A stretch of 23,017 nt of DNA from the IMG/VR virus record IMGVR_UViG_3300032284_000507, positions 1 through 23,017 of that record; one strand, given 5' to 3'. The notes beneath the pieces are model-generated. The model was not told the DNA's origin. It did no database searches and worked only from the letters and a program-made list of their open reading frames with translations. Positions within the stretch are counted from its first letter, which is position 1; each line of letters begins with the position of its first letter. Source of the stretch: a virus. The position numbers and the translations under genes are program-made. Of this stretch, positions 302 to 14,248 are shown piece after piece.

Positions 302-377
302 TGGATCCGGAAGATGGACTCGAACCACCGACACTCAGATTCAGAGTCTGATGTTCTACCAGCTGAACTATTCCGGA
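302..377 (-). tRNA. tRNA-Gln (anticodon CTG)
   Basis: Full cloverleaf on the minus strand: acceptor TCCGGAA/TTCCGGA, T loop TTCGAGT, anticodon stem TCAGA/TCTGA with loop CTCTGAA, and encoded CCA. It reads the CAG codon. Confidence 0.95.
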
Positions 378-524
378 ATAATTGAATTGTGGCAGGTGAG
401 GTATCTGGTCATTGGTTTCAAGGCCTTTGACTTCCCATTCTCCTTTTATCGGTCAATTACTCCGACCCTATCATACACACTGCTGCAGCGAGTGGTATTC
501 CATAGGCTTTCCTTACCACAAAGA
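378..524. other. Spacer within tRNA cluster, no gene recognised
   Basis: About 147 bases between tRNA-Gln and tRNA-Asp. I see no cloverleaf. On the minus strand there is only a ten-codon reading frame starting near 502 behind AAGGAAAG, too short to call. Nothing else is supported here. Confidence 0.5.
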
Positions 525-599
525 TGGCGCTCTCGAAGGGAATCGAACCCTCCTCGTTCCTTAGACAGAGGAATCGCCTCACCAGATGCGTACGAGAGC
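525..599 (-). tRNA. tRNA-Asp (anticodon GTC)
   Basis: Acceptor GCTCTCG/CGAGAGC, discriminator G, encoded CCA, T loop TTCGATT, anticodon loop CTGTCTA (anticodon GTC). Confidence 0.95.
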
Positions 600-603
600 A
601 AAT

Positions 604-679
604 TGGCTCCCCGACGTGGGCTCGAACCACGGACATTCTGATTAACAGTCAGACGCTCTACCAACTGAGCTATCGGGAA
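604..679 (-). tRNA. tRNA-Asn (anticodon GTT)
   Basis: Acceptor TTCCCGA/TCGGGGA, discriminator G, encoded CCA, T loop TTCGAGC, anticodon stem TCTGA/TCAGA with loop CTGTTAA (anticodon GTT). Only four bases separate it from tRNA-Asp. Confidence 0.96.
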
Positions 680-686
680 TCAAACT

Positions 687-761
687 TGGTTGCGGAGGCC
701 GGAATTGCACCGGCGATCTTTTGGGTATGAGCCAAATGAGATTCTGCTTCTCTACTCCGCG
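687..761 (-). tRNA. Initiator-like tRNA-Met (anticodon CAT)
   Basis: Reading the minus strand, the acceptor is CGCGGAG with CTCCGCA, so all pairs form except C1 with A72. That mismatch is the hallmark of bacterial initiator tRNA. The D stem GAGA/TCTC carries the initiator-type A11-U24 pair. The anticodon loop is CTCATAC (CAT) and CCA is encoded. It departs from standard initiators in three ways: only two of the three G-C pairs next to the anticodon loop are present (U-A, G-C, G-C), the short D loop AGCAGAA has no GG, and the T loop is TGCAATT with G instead of U at position 55. It could be a functional initiator or a decaying copy. Confidence 0.82.
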
Positions 762-767
762 ACATTA

Positions 768-843
<76 letters not shown>

Positions 844-852
844 GAATTAGTT

Positions 853-896
853 GGGATGATGTTGTGTACACCGGCCTCGCCAAGCCACATCATCCC
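853..896. repeat. 10-bp inverted repeat between tRNA-Thr and tRNA-Ala
   Basis: The arms 853-862 (GGGATGATGT) and 887-896 are perfect reverse complements, separated by 24 bases. It fills most of the spacer between two tRNAs and may form a processing hairpin in the precursor RNA. The role is inference. Confidence 0.5.
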
Positions 897-906
897 GTAC
901 GCGATT

Positions 907-982
907 TGGTGGAGACATGCGGGATCGAACCGCAGACCTTCTGAATGCAAATCAGACGCTCTCCCAACTGAGCTATGTCCCC
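907..982 (-). tRNA. tRNA-Ala (anticodon TGC)
   Basis: Acceptor GGGGACA/TGTCTCC, discriminator A, encoded CCA, T loop TTCGATC, anticodon stem TCTGA/TCAGA with loop TTTGCAT (anticodon TGC). Confidence 0.96.
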
Positions 983-992
983 ATATTCTATA

Positions 993-1068
993 TGGTAGAC
1001 CGTGTAGGGATCGAACCTACGACAAAGAGATTAAGAGTCTCCTGCTCTACCAACTGAGCTAACGGTCC
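993..1068 (-). tRNA. tRNA-Lys (anticodon CTT)
   Basis: Acceptor GGACCGT/ACGGTCT (G1-U72 wobble), discriminator A, encoded CCA, T loop TTCGATC, anticodon stem GGAGA/TCTCT with loop CTCTTAA (anticodon CTT). Confidence 0.95.
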
Positions 1069-1085
1069 AAATTTCCATACTCATT

Positions 1086-1210
1086 GGGGCTCTTACCCCA
1101 CCCTTGTGGTGTTTCGCCGAGTACGTAGCGCACCGGTGTATTCTCAGATAGCAGCGTTTCGAACCACTACTACTGATAAGCTATGCTGGTTCCACAACGA
1201 GTCACCAGCA
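1086..1210 (-). ncRNA. Candidate structured RNA between tRNA-Lys and tRNA-Ile
   Basis: No CDS or canonical cloverleaf fits, but consecutive hairpins do. 1184-1190 pairs with 1204-1210 (7 bp). 1165-1176 pairs with 1144-1156 (12 bp with one bulged base, using G-U pairs that form only in the minus-strand RNA) around a loop GTTCGAAA. Two 4-bp hairpins lie at 1098-1109 and 1086-1099. The T4 tRNA cluster is known to encode two extra stable RNAs (C and D), so an RNA gene here is plausible. Its exact ends are unknown. Confidence 0.35.
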
Positions 1211-1219
1211 ACCACACTC

Positions 1220-1294
1220 TGGTTGGCGCAGAAGGTAACGATCCTTCCACCCCTGTCTTATCAGGACAGTGCTCTACCTCTGAGCTATGCGCCA
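1220..1294 (-). tRNA. tRNA-Ile (anticodon GAT)
   Basis: Acceptor TGGCGCA/TGCGCCA, discriminator A, encoded CCA, T stem GAAGG/CCTTC with loop ATCGTTA (A at position 54 instead of U), anticodon stem CTGTC/GACAG with loop CTGATAA (anticodon GAT). It is the first tRNA of the cluster in the direction of transcription. Confidence 0.92.
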
Positions 1295-7107: not shown

Positions 7108-8100
7108 TTAGCGGGGCGCTTTACGATTAACCCTGCCACCAAGTGCGTTCGGATCAGCGGTAGCGGATGCACCAATAGCTGCAAGGTCCGCCAACGAGCC
7201 ACCAAAGATATAACTGCCAACGTGCTGCAGACGCATCCACGGACAGAACCATGTCTTAATGTCAGCTTCCTGAGCCTTCTGGCAGAACCAGTAGTCCTCA
7301 GACAGATAACGCTTCGACTTCTTGCTATTGATGTCCTGTGCAGTTGCAAGGACCTTCTCAATTTCAGCTTGAACGGCTGAAGGATCAGACAGACCCATTC
7401 CAGAGATACGCTTCATCTCCTGCTCGTAGTACGTCTTAAAGTCGAGCTGGTCGACTTCAGCCTGGAAAACCTGCATGATCTCACGTGAGCCATCGAAGTG
7501 CTCAGTACGAACATGATCAGGCTTATACAGATACTGCGGGAAGGTATCGTAGAACTTCTGCATAGCCGTACGATGAACCATCATAAAGCCAGTGCCAATC
7601 TCTAGAACTTCACAGGGCTCTCCAATCTGGATTGATTGTACACCACCTTTAGGATTAAAGACATAGTCACCGACAAATCTTTCAAGGACGTTCGGATCTG
7701 TATCAGCTACGCCCTTATCAACGGCTCGCTTGATCTTTTCCCATGAAATGCACTTCTTAGGATAAGGACCACCGATAATCTGATACTTTTCAGGCTCATT
7801 ACCTTGCATTACCATCATAGCGATGATGTCCTGAGCGCTAAACCCAATGTCAGAGTCGATGAACATCAGATGATCAGCTCCGGAGCGCATGAACTCGTCT
7901 ACGCAGTAGTTACGTGCACGTGTGATCAGTGACTCGTTGAACAGGAAGTAGAACTGCAGCTGAATGCCATGAACAGCACAGAATGCTGAAAGGTCGGTAC
8001 ATGACTTAGCAAACATACCAACGCATGCGCCGCCGTACATAGGAGTCGCGACAAATAGCTTCTGATTCTTTAGCTTGTCGAACTCAAACTTAATTTCCAT
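7108..8100 (-). CDS. GT-A type glycosyltransferase
   Basis: A 330-residue enzyme with the GT-A (family 2-like) pattern: KLFVATPMYGG near the N-terminus, the conserved FNESLITRARN segment (54-64), a metal-binding DSD in MFIDSDIGF (79-87), GGPYPKK further on, and a C-terminal SEDYWFC then LQHVGSY. Such proteins are common in T4-like phages of cyanobacteria and alphaproteobacteria, and acceptors are mostly unproven. Here it closes a run of genes starting at a dCMP hydroxymethylase, so a sugar acceptor on modified cytosine is a reasonable inference. Surface or virion glycosylation is the alternative. ATG 8100 follows GGAG by 8 nt, and the start overlaps the DUF3310 gene. Confidence 0.85.
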   Translation of the reverse strand: MEIKFEFDKLKNQKLFVATPMYGGACVGMFAKSCTDLSAFCAVHGIQLQFYFLFNESLITRARNYCVDEFMRSGADHLMFIDSDIGFSAQDIIAMMVMQGNEPEKYQIIGGPYPKKCISWEKIKRAVDKGVADTDPNVLERFVGDYVFNPKGGVQSIQIGEPCEVLEIGTGFMMVHRTAMQKFYDTFPQYLYKPDHVRTEHFDGSREIMQVFQAEVDQLDFKTYYEQEMKRISGMGLSDPSAVQAEIEKVLATAQDINSKKSKRYLSEDYWFCQKAQEADIKTWFCPWMRLQHVGSYIFGGSLADLAAIGASATADPNALGGRVNRKAPR

Positions 8101-8428
8101 TCTTAATCTCCTTATCATGCACGTATAGTGCTAAAATGCTGTAGTGAAGGATCTTCAAAAGATCTTGACGATTGCGACCACCCTTCTTGCCGTAGCGAGA
8201 AGCGTACTTAATAATGTCGCCGATGGTGAATCCCATTCCATGGCCAGCAGCCGCAATTAGCTCGAAAGCTTGAACGTTGTCGGTGCCGACATAGTGAGAT
8301 GTGTAGGTACCATCTATATATGCTTTGAGTTCTGCAATCAGATTCTCTTCATCGAACTTGTACTTAATATTCTTCTCATCCAATTTCTTCATAACATTTT
8401 CCAAATATTTTACGTCGTCAGAATTCAT
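8090..8428 (-). CDS. DUF3310-like protein
   Basis: 112 residues. The C-terminal half carries the DUF3310 pattern: YVGTDNVQAFELIAAAGHG, then GDIIKYASRYGKKGGRNRQDLL and a final helix LHYSILALYVHDKE. The family is common in phages, often near nucleotide metabolism genes, and its biochemical role is not established to my knowledge. The start ATG 8428 overlaps the stop of the SGNH gene (ATGA) with AAGGA 9 nt upstream. The longer open frame upstream has no better start. Its place between an SGNH protein and a glycosyltransferase gives no firm clue. Confidence 0.8.
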   Translation of the reverse strand: MNSDDVKYLENVMKKLDEKNIKYKFDEENLIAELKAYIDGTYTSHYVGTDNVQAFELIAAAGHGMGFTIGDIIKYASRYGKKGGRNRQDLLKILHYSILALYVHDKEIKNGN

Positions 8429-9474
8429 TCCATAAATCCTTTCAATGATGAAATTCCATTCCACTTCAATCCCTGCCAATGGGGATAATACTCACGCGAT
8501 AGATGTACTGATTGTGGCTTCTCCATATACTTAAAGTCTAATTCACCAGCTTCGTTCTTCAATCCATCAACCCATCTCTTAATCCAGACGCGCTTGGTAT
8601 TTGCAGCTTCGATTTGTAGATGTGCTCTAAACCAAAGACGAACACGCTCACGCTCTTCCCATGTACCATGAAATGGTTTACCTTTGTAGTATCCAGTCTT
8701 AGGAATCTTGCGTGACTCATTCTCAATAGGCAATGGCTCATATAGATTTACAGTTGCATCATACTTTATAGCTAGCATGTTAGCCTGCTTTACATATGCG
8801 CTGACCAGCTTGAGTGTTGATGCAACAGGATCAGGGAACCTGCAAAGATGATGACGAATATCGATGTTGCCAAAGTAGAAGTCGATCTCTGTAAACTTTT
8901 GATCCTTAGGCAGGAAGGACTCAAGTCCAGCGCTCAATGCACCATGCAGTGTCTTGAAAGGTACAGACACATTTAACCAACCAGGACGGTACAAACTAAT
9001 AGCGTGCGAGTCGCCAACAGCGATCGCAGGATAGTCATGGAACAGGTCATTAGGATTCATGACTGTGCTACGATGTTTGATGATGTTCAAGCCTTCCCAA
9101 TCAACCAGGTTCCAGTCAGGATGTGCATCAGGTGTTTTATCAAGTCTAGTGCGTAGCATACCATGATAGTCAGGATATTCAATACCTATACTATACACCC
9201 TTTTCTTGAATTTTGACATCTTTATTACGCTATCGATGTTAGCATAATTCTTGACACCACCAAACATATTGAGAGTGCCACCCCAATCATTACCATGATA
9301 GACGTACAGAGCATCATACTCATTGTAGTCATCAGGGATATTGCCGGTCATAGCCAGATCGACATCGATACCTGAGAACTCAAGCTGATCAGCATAGATC
9401 ACGCCCTGAGCTGAACGGTGTGATGCAATATTCTTAGATAAAGGAGTGAAGGGAGTTACTACGAGTGCTTTCAT
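8425..9474 (-). CDS. SGNH/GDSL-like protein with unknown N-terminal domain
   Basis: 349 residues. The C-terminal two thirds shows SGNH hydrolase blocks: AVGDSHA (block I, candidate nucleophile Ser), FGNIDIRHH (block III-like), and VHLS near the C-terminus (block V-like His). The first 130 residues start MKALVVTPFTP and contain YVYHGNDWGG. They look like a separate alpha/beta domain that I cannot name. SGNH enzymes hydrolyse or transfer acyl esters. In a DNA-modification setting an acyl or esterase step on the modified base is possible, but a surface polysaccharide substrate cannot be excluded. ATG 9474 follows GGAAAAAGA. The gene overlaps both neighbours. Confidence 0.65.
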   Translation of the reverse strand: MKALVVTPFTPLSKNIASHRSAQGVIYADQLEFSGIDVDLAMTGNIPDDYNEYDALYVYHGNDWGGTLNMFGGVKNYANIDSVIKMSKFKKRVYSIGIEYPDYHGMLRTRLDKTPDAHPDWNLVDWEGLNIIKHRSTVMNPNDLFHDYPAIAVGDSHAISLYRPGWLNVSVPFKTLHGALSAGLESFLPKDQKFTEIDFYFGNIDIRHHLCRFPDPVASTLKLVSAYVKQANMLAIKYDATVNLYEPLPIENESRKIPKTGYYKGKPFHGTWEERERVRLWFRAHLQIEAANTKRVWIKRWVDGLKNEAGELDFKYMEKPQSVHLSREYYPHWQGLKWNGISSLKGFME

Positions 9475-10288
9475 TCTTTTTCCAATCACGATATGAATCT
9501 ACGCGATCATAGATCGTCTCATCTTTTAGTACAGGCTCGGTCCCAACGTTCCACATTAGGATGTTACGACCTGTGTTCTTCGGGATATACTTCCACACCT
9601 TTGCATCATACGTTGCAACCGTTGGAAATGGAGGAAGATATGGTTCTGGTGTTTGAAACGCAAGAGGATCAGAGATAACCTCAGCTCTACCAAGTTCACC
9701 AGCCTTTAAGTTACGTGACACTGCAATACAATGAAACTTAGCTTTAGGCCAAGCGATCTGAAGTGCGCGTGATAGAACACCAGTTGATATAGCTACATAT
9801 ACCTCGTCAGGCGGATCGATCTTACTTGCAGCATATACAATACCAGCAGTTGCAAGCTCATGCTTCAAACCAAGTGGAATGAAGAAAGCATCATTCTTCT
9901 CCGCCCACTCTTTAGCCATAATATTTAGTACAGGCATAGCAGCAATACGTTCAAAGATAGGTTTTGCACCTTGCTCAATACAACATGCCTGATGCAGAGA
10001 GATACGCTTTGATGAAGGCATGAATAACACAACATCCTTGTTATGTACACGCGCAACCTCATTCAATGATACACCAGCCAATCCAGTCCGTGGCTGGACA
10101 TATACCATTGTCTTATAGTTTGTTTTAGCAGCTAGAAGATCGCCGGCACGAGTTTTCGTACCAACGATAAGATCGTCTCTGACTACTCGAACACCCTCAT
10201 GTTCAACGACAACTGGATCAGGATTGTATGGAGTCCAACCATCTGTAAGCGAAAGATAGTACTCCTTCGCTTGCGCCCAGTCCATCAT
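9434..10288 (-). CDS. Candidate PLP-dependent enzyme, fold type II
   Basis: About 284 residues. The segment RVVRDDLIVGTKTRAGDLLA resembles the fold II (tryptophan synthase beta / ACC deaminase / D-cysteine desulfhydrase) signature in which the Lys of G-x-K-T-R binds PLP. It is followed by TGLAGVSLNEVARVH, where these enzymes have their substrate-binding turn, and AISTGVLSRAL, where they bind the PLP phosphate. The match is by pattern only. PLP enzymes are known in phage thymidine hypermodification pathways, which fits the neighbours. The start is uncertain: ATG 10288 has a weak site, and a TTG at 10336, which overlaps the upstream stop, is the alternative. The protein overlaps the SGNH gene by 41 bases. 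Confidence 0.6.
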   Translation of the reverse strand: MMDWAQAKEYYLSLTDGWTPYNPDPVVVEHEGVRVVRDDLIVGTKTRAGDLLAAKTNYKTMVYVQPRTGLAGVSLNEVARVHNKDVVLFMPSSKRISLHQACCIEQGAKPIFERIAAMPVLNIMAKEWAEKNDAFFIPLGLKHELATAGIVYAASKIDPPDEVYVAISTGVLSRALQIAWPKAKFHCIAVSRNLKAGELGRAEVISDPLAFQTPEPYLPPFPTVATYDAKVWKYIPKNTGRNILMWNVGTEPVLKDETIYDRVDSYRDWKKNESTRSNSLHSFI

Positions 10289-10325
10289 GCGTAGATCTTT
10301 ATTATGTCCATCTAGTACGTGATAA

Positions 10326-11471
10326 TCATGCGACAAGTTCGTTTACTTTCCTCTTGTAATCTGCAACGCTCATGCTATGCATATCTAACACATAGCTATC
10401 AGAGGGATGATGATTCATGTTGTTGAACGAGTCAACCAAACCAAGTTGAAGCATTGCTTTTTGTCGGCCAAACGGGTGATCCTTGATTCTACAGGATGAC
10501 CAGATAGCATCACGATCAAGGTGGTCGTAGGCAGAACCTGGCTTAACAAAGTTCTCAACCCAACGAATGAAGTCACAACATACGTCCTCTGCATTATATG
10601 GAAATGAGTTGGTGTCCTCATAGATACGATCCATCACTTCATCTAGGAAGTCAATCTGCTTCTTCTTTTGTGTGTTGATAGCAAGGTATGAGATACACTC
10701 TTTAGCATTTGACCCATAATAGAATGGGCTACGCGGGTTCACGTAGCGTGGGTACCAATCAGCAATGTCTGCAACAATAGCTGCATACTGAAAGTGATAT
10801 TGCTTCAAGCCATTGCGTGTGTTCCAATTAAGCATGAAGTCACCAATCTCGCGAAGATCACGCCCACGCCCTTTCTCTAGGAAGTCAGCAAGATCACGGG
10901 CAAGGCGTGGTGCGAACTCACCAAGATAGTAGTCACCACCTTTTTTGTAGTCGCCTTGTGGTTTTGGAAATTGTGGGAACTGGTAACCAACAGATGTATA
11001 GAATGGGAACTGATAGTTCTTGACGATCTTTACCATATCCTCGATTGTCTTTGACTCATGCAAAGAGAATAGGATACTGTTGTGATAGCCCGATGGCTTC
11101 ACAGCATAATTAATACCAGAACCGGTCACACGATGAACAATGAAAACATAAAGCCACTCAGGCAGCTTGAAATCATCATGCTTACCTGTCCAGTTTTTGG
11201 CTACAACTTCTCTTTGCCGAGAGTGGATACCTCTTTCCATCTTTGTCCAGTATGGGTGGGAGGGGGTCCATCCATGGTAGCAGTCGTGCATGATTTGTGA
11301 AAATCCAGCAAACTTTCGCTGGACAACATCGTAGAGTTCAACATGCTCGAGGAGGTCGTCGCCCATTCTCGATTCAAGGTAGGGGATAGACCCGAGATTG
11401 CATTTCTCTTGCTGTGTCTTAGCCAAAGTGAAGTAACGCAAGTACTCATCGTAATACTCTGTGGTTTCCAT
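10326..11471 (-). CDS. Candidate amino acid:DNA transferase-like protein
   Basis: A 381-residue, largely helical protein. The central LYVFIVHRVTGSGINYAV (about 107-124) and the following KPSGYHN (125-131) recall the R-x-TGSG and GY-x-N motifs that I associate with the phage alpha-glutamyl/putrescinyl-thymidine pyrophosphorylase and amino acid:DNA transferase group. These are DNA-glycosylase-related enzymes that attach amino acids or polyamines to activated hydroxymethyl bases. I rely on memory for this, so it stays a candidate. The context supports it: dCMP hydroxymethylase, a UDG-like gene and a PLP-type enzyme are adjacent. ATG 11471 has AGAGG about 8 nt upstream, and longer starts have none. 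It overlaps the UDG-like gene by 26 bases. Confidence 0.55.
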   Translation of the reverse strand: METTEYYDEYLRYFTLAKTQQEKCNLGSIPYLESRMGDDLLEHVELYDVVQRKFAGFSQIMHDCYHGWTPSHPYWTKMERGIHSRQREVVAKNWTGKHDDFKLPEWLYVFIVHRVTGSGINYAVKPSGYHNSILFSLHESKTIEDMVKIVKNYQFPFYTSVGYQFPQFPKPQGDYKKGGDYYLGEFAPRLARDLADFLEKGRGRDLREIGDFMLNWNTRNGLKQYHFQYAAIVADIADWYPRYVNPRSPFYYGSNAKECISYLAINTQKKKQIDFLDEVMDRIYEDTNSFPYNAEDVCCDFIRWVENFVKPGSAYDHLDRDAIWSSCRIKDHPFGRQKAMLQLGLVDSFNNMNHHPSDSYVLDMHSMSVADYKRKVNELVA

Positions 11472-11856
11472 CAATGTACCTCTTAGCCTCACGAAGCTTC
11501 TGCTTCTCATACTCCGGATCATTTAGTTTTCTATTTAGTCCAGATGGATGAGGCAACACAAAGTGCTCGATACCAAGTATCTCCAACGCACGAGACGGGA
11601 ATTTACCTAGCGCAAGCACTTTATCATGCAGTTGTGCACAATCCATAAGTGTATTATAATCTATATCAGCCGGTTTGTACACACCTGTTGTGTGTACACA
11701 GTTGACAAACGAGAAGTACTCGATACCAAGCTTCTCAGCCCACTTAGATAATCGACTTAAAGTCTTCGATCGAGTTGAGCCCTTGCTTGGATTTATACCC
11801 ACTACTAAGACTCGTATACGAGACGTCGGCTTCGTCAAACATTCTTTGTGTGTCAT
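11446..11856 (-). CDS. Uracil-DNA glycosylase superfamily protein
   Basis: A 136-residue minimal member of the UDG fold: motif 1 as VVGINPSKG (about 18-26) and motif 2 as HPSGLNRKLND (103-113), with a YFSFVNCV strand between. Small UDG-like proteins of this type occur in T4-like phages. Motif 1 has Asn-Pro-Ser rather than the Asp-Pro-Tyr of classical UNG, so removal of uracil is not certain. It could act on another base or only bind. ATG 11856 is chosen because GGAAAG lies 9 nt upstream. ATG 11880 and 11865 are alternatives. The 5' part overlaps the deaminase gene by over 100 bases in another frame, which is unusual but consistent with this compact cluster. Confidence 0.72.
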   Translation of the reverse strand: MTHKECLTKPTSRIRVLVVGINPSKGSTRSKTLSRLSKWAEKLGIEYFSFVNCVHTTGVYKPADIDYNTLMDCAQLHDKVLALGKFPSRALEILGIEHFVLPHPSGLNRKLNDPEYEKQKLREAKRYIDGNHRVLR

Positions 11857-12262
11857 CAAATGCATCTTTCCACTTGTCATCTATATCGATTGGGTAACAC
11901 ATGATCACGCGTTTAATGCCAACTTGGATAACACCCTTGGCACATTCAGAGCATACAGGCAATCCATGCACATATACGGTTGAGTTCTCCAGCGATACAC
12001 CAGAGAACGAAGCATTATAGATACAGTTCATCTCAGCATGAACGACCAGCTTTAACTTAGTTGGTCTATCGTTCAGGCGATCCTTACTATCCTTAATACC
12101 ACGAGGAAAGCCGTTATAGCCCTGTGATAAGATTTGACCCTTATCACCAACTATAACAGCACCAACCTGCGTACTAGGATCCTTCGACCAAGTCGATACC
12201 TCTTTAGCTAGGTTGAGGTATCGATAGTCCCAACTAGTCAATGAGATTAAAGTGTCTCTCAT
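11744..12262 (-). CDS. cd: dCMP deaminase
   Basis: A zinc-dependent deoxycytidylate deaminase, converting dCMP to dUMP as precursor for thymidylate. The 172-residue protein has the family core: QVGAVIVGDKGQILSQGYNGFPRG (32-55), the zinc and catalytic motif HAE (75-77) and the second zinc motif CSEC (104-107). The usual Pro-Cys is Pro-Val-Cys here, but the C-x-x-C pair is kept. T4 Cd is of similar size (193). ATG 12262 starts an N-terminus that fits the fold. ATG 12283 is in frame and possible. It overlaps the dCMP hydroxymethylase gene, so two enzymes that compete for dCMP are co-expressed. Confidence 0.92.
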   Translation of the reverse strand: MRDTLISLTSWDYRYLNLAKEVSTWSKDPSTQVGAVIVGDKGQILSQGYNGFPRGIKDSKDRLNDRPTKLKLVVHAEMNCIYNASFSGVSLENSTVYVHGLPVCSECAKGVIQVGIKRVIMCYPIDIDDKWKDAFDDTQRMFDEADVSYTSLSSGYKSKQGLNSIEDFKSII

Positions 12263-12911
12263 ATACGTGCAAGCTCCCAACATTCCAATGAATTGTACCA
12301 GGTGTCACGTCCATACCACCTTCCATTTCAGAAAGATCGGTAGCAAGAGTGTCGAGTACGTGCTTCTGCCATGCATAGTCATTCTTATAACCAAACACAA
12401 CATCGTTCGAACGCATCTGAACTACAGCTTCAAGCTTACCATAACGAATCATATACTGTACAGCATTAGTGCACATAAAGTCAGAACGACCGTCAAAGTT
12501 ATAGTCATACCACATCGTGGGTCGTGTATAGATCATGGTCGCTCGGCGCGATTCGGGATTCTTCAAGAGCTCAAACAAAACATGCTTGTACTGCTCATGA
12601 TTTTCAGGCGACCAGATAGCCCAACCATAGTTAGAGTTAATGAATCCATCACTATCAGCAACCTGCTTCCAGATAGCAGGAGGACCACCAGGAATATCAT
12701 TGACATTCAGTGACTGTGATTGATACCATGCAAGCTCACGATCGACATAGTCTTGGTTGACCGTGCCAAAGATTGCAGGTGCATCAGCAACAAATGATGC
12801 GCCACGAATCTCAAGCATCTTAACACCGGTCTTATCGGTAACGTAGAGTTCCTGCTGTTTTAGATAGCGGAACTCATCACGGATCTGTTCAACATAGTTA
12901 CGACGAATCAT
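12234..12911 (-). CDS. 42: dCMP hydroxymethylase (gp42-like)
   Basis: Converts dCMP to 5-hydroxymethyl-dCMP with methylene-tetrahydrofolate, the entry to hydroxymethylcytosine DNA. The 225 residues match T4 gp42 along the length: VTDKTGVKMLEIRGASFVAD (24-43), NSNYGWAIWS (92-101), RRATMIYTRPTM (122-133), catalytic Cys147 in DFMCTNAVQY, RSND (167-170) and WNVGSLHVYERHF. Asp178 in FGYKND is aligned with T4 Asp179, the residue that selects dCMP where thymidylate synthase has Asn, so this is a dCMP enzyme, not a thymidylate synthase. It stops about 20 residues before the T4 C-terminus. GGTGAAAGA precedes the ATG, which overlaps the upstream stop. Confidence 0.94.
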   Translation of the reverse strand: MIRRNYVEQIRDEFRYLKQQELYVTDKTGVKMLEIRGASFVADAPAIFGTVNQDYVDRELAWYQSQSLNVNDIPGGPPAIWKQVADSDGFINSNYGWAIWSPENHEQYKHVLFELLKNPESRRATMIYTRPTMWYDYNFDGRSDFMCTNAVQYMIRYGKLEAVVQMRSNDVVFGYKNDYAWQKHVLDTLATDLSEMEGGMDVTPGTIHWNVGSLHVYERHFNLID

Positions 12912-13249
12912 TCTTTCACCACGATCTTCTTGTTAAAGATGTCATAACCGGGCTGCTGGCCTTCGATACCACCACGCAGCCATGCAACAGCGAACGACGC
13001 ATAGTTGATCAGGTCTTTATAGGTATCTTCAAGAGATTCAAAGTTAGCAATATCGGCACGGCCAGACTCAAGCAGAGACTGCGCACGATACATCTTACCT
13101 TGCATAATGTCATGGATAGAATCGATACCGCGACGATAGTGCATTGCCTGCACAACGTTCGAGTTAGGATTCTGATAGTCTTGGGACTTCTTGATCTGAA
13201 GTTCCATACACTCACGAAGGACTGTTACAGAGGCGCGTTCATTGGCCAT
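12908..13249 (-). CDS. DUF1599 / nucleotide-modification-associated-like protein
   Basis: 113 residues. The pattern LRECMELQIKKSQDYQNPNS (11-30), then IHDIMQGKMYRAQSLLE and FESLEDTYKDLINYASFAVAWL resembles the DUF1599 (Nmad1) family, described as associated with nucleotide modification in phages. Similar proteins occur in T4-like cyanophages. No catalytic role is established. It lies one base after the gene upstream and overlaps the start of the dCMP hydroxymethylase gene (ATGA), so translation with gp42 is likely coupled. ATG 13249 has GGAG about 5 nt upstream. Confidence 0.65.
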   Translation of the reverse strand: MANERASVTVLRECMELQIKKSQDYQNPNSNVVQAMHYRRGIDSIHDIMQGKMYRAQSLLESGRADIANFESLEDTYKDLINYASFAVAWLRGGIEGQQPGYDIFNKKIVVKE

Positions 13250-13250
13250 A

Positions 13251-13850
13251 TTAGCTCCGATACTTTACATTGTTATTGTAGACGCAGTTGCCATCTTCCA
13301 TGGCAAAGAAGTGATTATAATACACTGATTTGCGATCCTTGTACACCGGGTGTACAAACTTAGATGGAGATAGGTATTTACGGAATGACTTAGCATCCGC
13401 AATCATATGAAAGCCTACTTCGTAGATGTCTTTATGTCTGACAAGCTTAGGACAAATTACGTAGTCAATCAGATCGATGTGTTTGAACATCGTCTTAAGA
13501 GCATCGGGTGGATAGGTAAACCACTTAGTACCATCTCCAGGTGGCCAGCGCTTTAGCTCAAACGTATCATCGCCGTAGTTTACATCCCAAGCATAGGTCT
13601 TCGGATCCTTATAGTCAAAGTTTTTGTTATAAGGATTCTTTACAAAATTAGGATCGATGTGATGCATAAGGATCTCTGCTGACATATTTTCTGCACTCCA
13701 GAAAACCTGTTCAGCTGTTCTTTTGTCATCCGATCTTTTATTCTTAAAAAGCTCATATGCTTTATGAGCAATAAAGTCCATGAGCTCAGGTGTCTTTTCA
13801 AGGATGAAGCTCTTACCGATGATAAGCTTCGCATAATCATGGATAGACAT
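13251..13850 (-). CDS. Hypothetical protein with possible PD-(D/E)XK nuclease motif
   Basis: A 199-residue protein without a family I can name. Around residues 87-101 it reads AWDVNYGDDTFELKRW. An Asp (89), a short beta-turn and Glu-Leu-Lys (98-100) match the D-x(n)-E-x-K core of PD-(D/E)XK nucleases, and Glu59 in an N-terminal helix could be the supporting acid. One motif is weak evidence. Many unrelated proteins show it. The ATG overlaps the MazG stop (TAATG). Position within a DNA-modification cluster makes a nuclease that attacks unmodified DNA conceivable, but this is inference. Confidence 0.7.
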   Translation of the reverse strand: MSIHDYAKLIIGKSFILEKTPELMDFIAHKAYELFKNKRSDDKRTAEQVFWSAENMSAEILMHHIDPNFVKNPYNKNFDYKDPKTYAWDVNYGDDTFELKRWPPGDGTKWFTYPPDALKTMFKHIDLIDYVICPKLVRHKDIYEVGFHMIADAKSFRKYLSPSKFVHPVYKDRKSVYYNHFFAMEDGNCVYNNNVKYRS

Positions 13851-14248
13851 TAGAAGATCTCTTTGAGTTTGCCTTCATTACCAATATGTGAGGGTGCGGT
13901 CCAACCAGCTGGCTTCATTAGGTCGGGCAGTCCAAGAGGATTAGGTCGACCTTCCTTGATACCAACTTCTTTCTTCATGTTAGCATAGAGAACTTCATTC
14001 CATGCTTTATATGCATCTACATTGTAGGCATCAAGAGTGCCAATAGCCACCACACATAGATCAATAAGAGCATCCACAACATCGTCCGCATTCTTAGCAT
14101 TCTTCATCTCATCAAGTTCTTCCTGAAGGAAGTTAATACGAAACTCAAGGAACTTCTTAAGCTTATCCTTGTCCATGTTATCAAACGCAGTATGCTGCTT
14201 GTAGTGGTTATGCATACCAAAGATGTCTTTTACCCAATCGCGGCTCAT
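13850..14248 (-). CDS. MazG-like nucleotide pyrophosphohydrolase
   Basis: 132 residues with the all-alpha NTP pyrophosphohydrolase (MazG / phosphoribosyl-ATP pyrophosphatase-like) pattern: FRINFLQEELDEMKNA (36-51, metal-binding Glu44 and Glu47) and ADDVVDALIDLCVVAIGTLDAY (54-75, Asp56, Asp59 and Asp63), followed by a helix ending in KEVG. These enzymes hydrolyse NTPs or dNTPs to monophosphates. In a phage that makes hydroxymethyl-dCMP a dNTP-cleaning role would make sense, because T4 removes dCTP with a dedicated enzyme (gp56) not seen here. The substrate cannot be read from the sequence. The start overlaps the previous stop (ATGA). Confidence 0.82.
   Translation of the reverse strand: MSRDWVKDIFGMHNHYKQHTAFDNMDKDKLKKFLEFRINFLQEELDEMKNAKNADDVVDALIDLCVVAIGTLDAYNVDAYKAWNEVLYANMKKEVGIKEGRPNPLGLPDLMKPAGWTAPSHIGNEGKLKEIF

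Follow-up and report, generated by a model that had tools for sequence, protein, structure and literature searches.

A candidate exchangeable cassette for cytosine hypermodification in T4-like phages

Gene organization of the locus

The 23,017-nucleotide IMG/VR virus record IMGVR_UViG_3300032284_000507 (positions 1-23,017, hereafter the window) stems from a T4-like phage, as indicated by Pfam matches to gp23 and UvsY, and carries a gene cluster that may act as an exchangeable cassette for the hypermodification of cytosine. Clamp, clamp loader, gp44, gp45, gp46, gp47 and similar labels used below were assigned by eye. Nine minus-strand open reading frames (ORFs) make up the cluster, successive ones overlapping by 4 to about 140 bases, a value set by the start codon chosen. 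The first-pass annotation of the window, made from the sequence alone, had described a single overlapping run; its ORFs were all recovered, with their overlaps and on the minus strand.

At the 5' side, a DUF1599 protein (nucleotide modification associated domain 1; 12908..13249, PF07659 E 1.7e-6) neighbours a T4 gp42-like dCMP hydroxymethylase (HMase; 12234..12911, PF00303 E 3e-15, over the cut-off). A dCMP deaminase (11744..12283, PF00383 E 2e-19) and a protein resembling the uracil-DNA glycosylase (UDG) superfamily (11446..11880, PF03167 E 6e-4, under the cut-off) are partners often but not always. They are followed by X, a 381-residue helical protein without a Pfam or PHROG match and a candidate transferase that would resemble the amino acid:DNA transferases (ADDT) in role (10326..11471, longest start 11522); by PALP, a pyridoxal phosphate (PLP) enzyme of fold-type II (9434..10336, phrog_7093 E 4e-36; Pfam PALP E 0.005, under the cut-off); and by an SGNH-domain protein (8425..9474, longest start 9489; phrog_13881 E 6e-52, function unknown). 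A DUF3310 protein (8090..8479, PF11753 E 2e-11) and a phrog_1574 protein, previously labelled GT-A (7108..8118, phrog_1574 E 7e-55, function unknown), complete the run, and a PRA-PH/MazG-like gene lies upstream (13850..14248, minus strand, PF01503 E 1.5e-6). The last three belong to the genomic backbone, the MazG-like gene forming the 5' border and the DUF3310 gene the 3' border of a slot in which gene sets are swapped. Eight tRNA genes occupy the start of the window (302-1294, minus strand).

Profile searches bore out part of the earlier gene labels. Those of the HMase, the deaminase and DUF3310 were confirmed directly, while the UDG-like protein and PALP stayed under their Pfam cut-offs, though PALP matches phrog_7093. 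The proposed GT-A protein was not confirmed as a glycosyltransferase, the gene yielding only Anp1 at E 0.073 and a PHROG of unknown function.

The predicted base-forming enzyme

The HMase shares 61.6% identity with T4 gp42 over 97% of its length. Its active-site Cys is retained, and Asp stands at the position of Asn177 of E. coli thymidylate synthase (TS). Asp occupies this position in 58 of 59 HMase ORFs from loci containing X, the remaining one being a 52-residue fragment, and in the TS-family gene of all eight large X-bearing contigs described below. In PMC8670742, TS position 177 is tied to the use of dCMP and to modified cytosine. Together, the identity to gp42 and the Asp bear out the earlier claim of a cytosine-specific base former.

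A different product was considered, as a 5-hydroxy-dCMP synthase is described in the genus of phage RB69 in PMC13390438. RB69 p048, which is presumably an enzyme of that type, likewise has Asp at the TS-177 position. It shares 24.2% identity with the HMase, against 61.6% for T4 gp42, and an RB69-type enzyme was rejected as the base former. The predicted product of the HMase is hydroxymethyl-dCMP (hmdCMP) rather than 5-hydroxy-dCMP, and at the level of sequence the predicted formation of hydroxymethylcytosine (hmC) is well supported.

A C5-cytosine DNA methylase homologue was observed in some loci with X (L010, L011, L015-L018, L120) and in HMase loci lacking X (L194, L195, L205, L249, L262, L263; PF00145 E 4e-19 in L195). 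Its presence beside an HMase is odd, C5 being already taken in hmC; hmC itself might be its substrate, or its donor might be a different one.

Conserved linkage of HMase, X, PALP and SGNH

Two sets of loci were compared, neither of them random and with some near copies among them: X loci, taken from the best 80 of 540 IMG/VR stretches related to X, and gp44-anchored control loci, the best 80 of at least 600. The counts exclude L001 and L009, which repeat the window and L002, and also the phage records L006-L008. The same gene order was found in loci whose X proteins share down to 58% identity, and because of this recurrence the run is more than a chance arrangement.

Linkage was counted per cluster of X proteins at 90% identity, for 23 clusters with 4 kb of downstream and 21 with 3 kb of upstream sequence. 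SGNH accompanied X in 23/23 and PALP in 22/23 clusters, and an additional protein, Y, was present in 15/23; upstream, the HMase was found in 17/21, the deaminase in 14/21 and the UDG-like gene in 12/21. Eight large X-bearing contigs (102-168 kb, possibly incomplete) served for tests at contig level, and a TS-family gene, PALP and SGNH were each present in all eight, including contigs in which about 13 or 28 kb separate X from the HMase or PALP. Two loci with SGNH or PALP and without X (L188, L190) are short contigs. The core of the module is HMase, X, PALP and SGNH. Among the 58 HMase-bearing X loci, DUF1599 occurs in 55 and the deaminase in 26; DUF1599 is also present in the seven HMase control loci, and the UDG-like gene in all seven of these but in only 38 of the 58.

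In the 80 control loci, the GT-A gene was found in 67, DUF3310 in 54 and X in one, L192, which shares its contig with X locus L016 and is hence not an independent control. Because GT-A and DUF3310 are frequent in these controls, where X is rare, both were rejected as members of the module. The cluster therefore stands as a cytosine-side cassette as far as X, PALP and SGNH with the HMase are concerned, whereas the inclusion of DUF3310 and GT-A in the functional unit, as first proposed, does not.

Exchange of cassettes in a single slot

A MazG-like gene borders the slots of all cassette types observed. The slot is not visible in many of the 80 control loci; among the 27 showing both MazG and gp45, 13 carry Tet_JBP, ADDT and a kinase (slot A), nine carry Tet_JBP without ADDT or kinase, four carry an HMase without X and one an HMase with X. 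HMase and Tet_JBP were found together in none of the 80 controls, and searching 88 X loci for homologues of the slot-A genes (dioxygenase, ADDT, kinase and PALP-like) returned none. This alternation of cassettes at one place is the strongest support for a role in hypermodification, and it suggests the segment between the MazG-like gene and DUF3310 as a target in searches for additional base-modification cassettes in this clade.

In slot A, a kinase accompanies ADDT in 20 of 20 ADDT loci, two of which also have a PALP-like gene, recognized by eye (Pfam PALP at E 0.078 only). In L226 all three genes have Pfam matches (Tet_JBP 6e-25, ADDT 5e-22, Ploopntkinase3 1e-12), and such cassettes of T4-like phages were seen at L226:3335-7560, in L200, L198 and others. 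The HMase cassettes without X are of a sugar type (slot B): of six such loci, four have GalE homologues and all six GT-like (glycosyltransferase-like) genes, the latter by eye, and L195 shows Pfam matches to an epimerase, a UDP-galactopyranose mutase (UGM) and the C5 DNA methylase. One HMase cassette (L194:3811-4911) encodes a 366-residue protein with a HAD-like start and a kinase-like part, as judged by eye, beside a cytidylyltransferase-like gene. In the slots with Tet_JBP only, a GT-like gene of 260-263 residues, also identified by eye, is present in eight of nine (L221-L223, L228, L229, L231, L235 and L246; L202 is without it), and the order of Tet_JBP followed by this gene is reminiscent of base J-like systems.

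The candidate transferase X and its cousin Y

Beyond the lack of a Pfam or PHROG family, X gave only a chance-level NCBIfam match. None of 31 members scanned with Pfam matched ADDT at E<=1, three weakly matching unrelated DUFs, and the ADDT profile PF18724 was found in none of the eight large contigs. A tblastn search of 50,697 phage records returned no X, whereas a scan with a five-sequence alignment found the 540 stretches in IMG/VR; surveys of deposited phages would thus miss a widespread protein. Among 84,980 bacterial and archaeal species, X was detected on four contigs, all from metagenome-assembled genomes, which we read as phage contigs.

The structure model of X (pLDDT 80.6, pTM 0.84) was compared with BFVD and the PDB. 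The first BFVD hit is X itself (94%), named 'Amino acid:DNA transferase domain-containing protein'. The fourth carries the same name at 14% identity (E 6e-4, TM 0.46-0.52), two unnamed relatives share 25-26% identity, and an HMUDK_hel protein (E 0.34) and an aGPT-Pplase1 protein (E 0.46) were also matched. In the PDB, the model matched the queuine salvage protein DUF2419 (Z 8.5, rmsd 5.2, 219 residues), 8-oxoguanine glycosylases (Z 7.8) and other DNA glycosylases; an ADDT structure is not in this match list, an absence that carries no weight. Solved structures searched with the X sequence gave a best E of 0.69 only. A BFVD match in Tenacibaculum phage PTm1 (E 9.5), presumed to be a 291-residue ORF near an SGNH homologue, was rejected as kin of X, the ORF being membrane-like and without profile support.

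A single conserved E-x3-C pair, at about 70-90% of protein length, is found in the alignments of X, Y, the M6-type ADDT, HMUDK_hel and the slot-A ADDT. The signature was noticed first and counted later. Both columns are 100% conserved in X (87 sequences), ADDT (44) and slot-A ADDT (20), 97% in Y (67), and 68% and 96% for E and C in HMUDK_hel (25). A longer form of the pattern is present in X 87/87, ADDT 40/44, slot-A ADDT 20/20, Y 36/67 and HMUDK_hel 15/25, and among 68 proteins of at least 250 residues encoded by G001, a 167,756-base relative, it occurs in X alone. In Aeromonas phage UP87, a fusion protein with an SGNH part also has E-x3-C close to its end. Because of the weak fold match, this signature and the replacement in the same slot, X is placed near ADDT: it probably works like an ADDT and is probably a remote relative, although we do not assign it to the family. 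The transferase label proposed earlier is to this extent retained, through fold hint, signature and common genomic slot, even if Pfam ADDT does not match.

Clustering places Y, a protein of about 330 residues encoded between X and PALP, in 69 of 88 X loci, and a profile in 71; Y is missing from the window and its nearest relative. Two members scanned gave no Pfam match above chance, and the profile link between Y and X is weak (E 0.0046, 7.6%).

The PLP enzyme and the SGNH protein

Phage M6 gp52 matches phrog_7093 at 2e-159 and the window PALP at 4e-36, which places both in one family. A G-x-K motif with the candidate PLP lysine and a C-terminal NVG motif are present in 71 of 71 members of at least 240 residues and, slightly changed, in M6 gp52; the lysine of G-x-K would bind PLP. 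Among solved structures, a sequence search points to cysteine synthases as the closest relatives (E 7e-6). The earlier proposal of a PLP enzyme is supported by these assignments to fold-type II and to the family of M6 gp52, which presumably acts on amino acids attached to thymidine. Members of the PALP family are also fused to or located beside ParB-like and DNA methylase domains, in Erythrobacter phage R6L gp1 (L006:4759-7190) and Microcystis phage Mae-JY30 (L007:4339-6657), possibly as another DNA modification system.

For the SGNH protein, the predicted fold was borne out by a structure model (pLDDT 88.5), in which residues 144-333 match 2hsj with Z 14.3 and rmsd 2.6 over 166 residues. Further matches include enzymes acting on acyl groups of sugars and lipids, such as PAF-AH and sialate O-acetylesterase. 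The GDSH block with its Ser is kept in 68 of 68 proteins and a C-terminal SVH motif with its His in 66 of 68. An N-terminal piece weakly resembles T4 beta-glucosyltransferase (BGT). Foldseek listed T4 BGT among the PDB matches (E 4.6e-4 to 2e-3), PF09198 matched the SGNH gene at E<=0.01 in five of the eight X contigs, with a best score of 15.1 bits against a cut-off of 27, and hhalign against a 351-residue T4 ORF gave E 4e-4 (34%, 49 columns). The aligned stretch covers T4 residue 100, which is altered in entry 1nzd and is Asp or Glu in 19 of 22 rows of alignment A3.

Homologues of the SGNH protein were found in 43 phage records, 38 of them from Aeromonas. In the Aeromonas phages 44RR and UP87 it is fused to an HMUDK_hel-like part, sub-threshold in 44RR. 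In 44RR (L008:5408-9388) and in L183, the fusion lies beside a sodium:solute symporter gene that might serve substrate import.

Search for a hydroxymethyl-base kinase

The first-pass annotation had expected a kinase elsewhere in the genome, and no recognised form was found: PF18748, PF18751 and DNMK were each absent from all eight large X-bearing contigs, which may be incomplete. Of four contigs with slot-A or Tet_JBP cassettes, three have both ADDT and PF18751 and the fourth lacks both; those three had been chosen because their loci showed kinase and ADDT. Nine ORFs of G001 have a Walker-A-like pattern, and inspection by eye revealed no small nucleotide kinase among them, only larger ATPases, known replication proteins and chance patterns. 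These searches covered recognised P-loop families. In L004, a DNMK-like P-loop gene adjoins SGNH (E 5e-6, just under the cut-off).

Proposed pathway and alternatives

With moderate confidence, we propose that the locus represents an exchangeable cytosine hypermodification cassette of T4-like phages in which X, PALP and SGNH as a whole decorate hmC, a reading drawn from their partners, the slot and remote similarities. The HMase would make hmdCMP, which, after conversion to the triphosphate, would be incorporated into DNA. There, the hydroxymethyl group of hmC would be handled by the SGNH protein, most likely in an acyl transfer that either activates the group or completes the decoration; X, together with its cousin Y in loci that have it, would attach an amino acid or amine to that group in the manner of an ADDT; and PALP would trim or rearrange the attached amino acid, by analogy with M6 gp52 on thymidine. 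No hydroxymethyl-base kinase would be involved. The order of the steps, the substrate, the product, the nature of the amino acid or acyl group and the acyl activation of hmC are guesses. Of the original proposal that hmC is decorated by an amino acid or amine and then by acyl or sugar groups, the hmC base former and the cassette are upheld, while the GT-A gene belongs to the backbone.

The kinase-free step alone is less sure than the decoration of hmC as a whole. In its explicit form, the BGT-like/SGNH hybrid would bind hmC in DNA and O-acylate its hydroxymethyl group to create a leaving group, X (with Y) would displace it with an amino acid and PALP would remodel the product, giving an aminated or amino-acylated cytosine. 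We regard this version as tentative and, taken by itself, unlikely. It can be likened to the activation of O-acetylserine in cysteine synthesis and, if true, would mean that acylation takes the place of phosphorylation as the activating step in phage DNA hypermodification.

Several observations weigh against the proposed pathway. In two contigs PALP is distant from X, and 8 of the 23 clusters have no Y. SGNH hydrolases usually have an Asp three residues ahead of the His; no Asp was found at that position in the 68 proteins, which have K (43), S (11), Q (10), H (1) or R (1), with two unmatched, and because of this lack acyl chemistry is not assured. Unrelated folds match the SGNH model as well as T4 BGT does (3wrw/3wrx at 5e-5 to 1e-3, decarboxylases at 2e-3), and PF09198 never exceeded its cut-off in the eight contigs and was missed in three. 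With Z reaching 8.5 at most, the PDB matches of X fall in a range described by the tool as common among helical proteins. Profile comparison of X by hhalign was not significant with the M6 ADDT or HMUDK_hel families (0.3%), nor with the slot-A ADDT (5.1%, E 0.008), the X family being shallow (Neff 1.7-2.2).

Other explanations were weighed. A variant of the proposed pathway, differing only in the kinase step, would have hmC phosphorylated or pyrophosphorylated by a kinase of the host, or by one of the phage that escapes the profiles, before X acts as an ADDT. In PMC6449724, a 5hmdU DNA kinase is reported ahead of the transferases in thymidine phages, and the constant pairing of ADDT with a kinase in slot A (20/20) and the DNMK-like gene beside SGNH in L004 point the same way; the zero counts for all three kinase profiles in the possibly incomplete X contigs and the lack of a small kinase by eye among the G001 Walker-A ORFs speak against such an enzyme. 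We regard this variant as unlikely. Alternatively, SGNH and PALP might modify a sugar, for example by acylation or amination, which a glycosyltransferase would place on hmC, with X as a DNA-binding helper. This would fit the SGNH fold matches, many of them to enzymes for the acyl groups on sugars or lipids, the BGT-like N-terminal piece and Aeromonas phage 25 (L182:3791-7062), where, contrary to what we propose, the SGNH homologue adjoins UGM and p227nc, a homologue of the GT-like gene of slot-B HMase cassettes (E 3e-38). Slot-B homologues are, however, scarce in X loci, many of which are short (of 88, only L066 has GalE and none has UGM or GTB); phrog_1574 belongs to the backbone and PALP to the M6 gp52 family. 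We judge a sugar pathway unlikely.

It is improbable that X is instead a DNA glycosylase or a repair or anti-restriction factor within an island for the tolerance or repair of hmC. Its PDB matches to 8-oxoguanine and other DNA glycosylases and DUF2419 and the adjoining UDG-like gene would suit this explanation, which accounts neither for the constant SGNH and PALP partners nor for the swap with ADDT and kinase in the same slot, and E-x3-C is common to the X and ADDT families. Dense phage operons do juxtapose unrelated genes, as exemplified by DUF3310 and phrog_1574, and the deaminase and UDG-like genes are missing from part of the HMase-bearing X loci. Yet HMase, PALP and SGNH accompany X both per cluster and per contig, even 13-28 kb apart, which makes it very improbable that the nucleotide-metabolism and accessory genes here are unrelated and only loosely linked.

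Comparison with known systems

A close parallel to the proposed decoration of hmC is the gene set of Pseudomonas phage M6, for which Pfam names a TS-family protein (gp58), a 5-hmdU DNA kinase (gp54), HMUDK_hel (gp55), ADDT (gp51) and a PLP enzyme (gp52), the roles of which we take to lie in 5-NedU thymidine hypermodification. Both systems have a PALP of one PHROG family, helical proteins with E-x3-C and a TS-type enzyme; unlike M6, the cassette has a dCMP-type base former and an SGNH protein, and no match to a kinase, Pfam ADDT or HMUDK_hel was found. The slot-A cassettes (L198, L200, L226 and others) share the slot and the clade, a helical transferase and, by eye in two loci, a PALP-like gene, but have a dioxygenase instead of the HMase, plus a kinase and a true ADDT; SGNH was not found in the four slot-A or Tet_JBP contigs searched. 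T4 hmC glucosylation by gp42 with alpha- and beta-glucosyltransferases resembles the cassette in the gp42 orthologue and the weak BGT-like piece of SGNH, and differs in that no BGT exceeded the cut-off in any of the eight X contigs; the search for the alpha enzyme was silent in all its own controls and carries no information. The SGNH protein of ORF233c of Aeromonas phage 44RR and its relatives is about 33% identical and fused to the sub-threshold HMUDK_hel part, whereas an SSF transporter gene lies alongside and no relative of X or PALP was found in Aeromonas phage records at E 1e-3.

To our knowledge, hydroxymethyl-derived amino-acid hypermodifications all arise from hydroxymethyluracil and all involve a kinase. 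The present cassette would differ in starting from hmC, and no such kinase was found. Glycine addition by CmoX/CmoY is a separate route: in PMC12783734, carboxymethylcytosine-glycine likewise has an amino acid on a C5 handle of cytosine, but the handle comes from a C5-methyltransferase homologue and the glycine is added by an ATP-dependent ligase, and neither kind of gene was seen in the window. The carbamoylation of hmC found by MetaGPA (PMC8670742) likewise has its setting in environmental phages, with HMase, deaminase and PRA-PH genes nearby; it was rejected for our loci, the carbamoyltransferase PF16861 being present in none of the eight X-bearing contigs. In the open-access literature searched, no account of ADDT, PLP or SGNH enzymes acting on hmC was found. 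The swap slot predicts novel DNA chemistry, which would be a challenge for restriction enzymes, type IV nucleases and sequencing tools.

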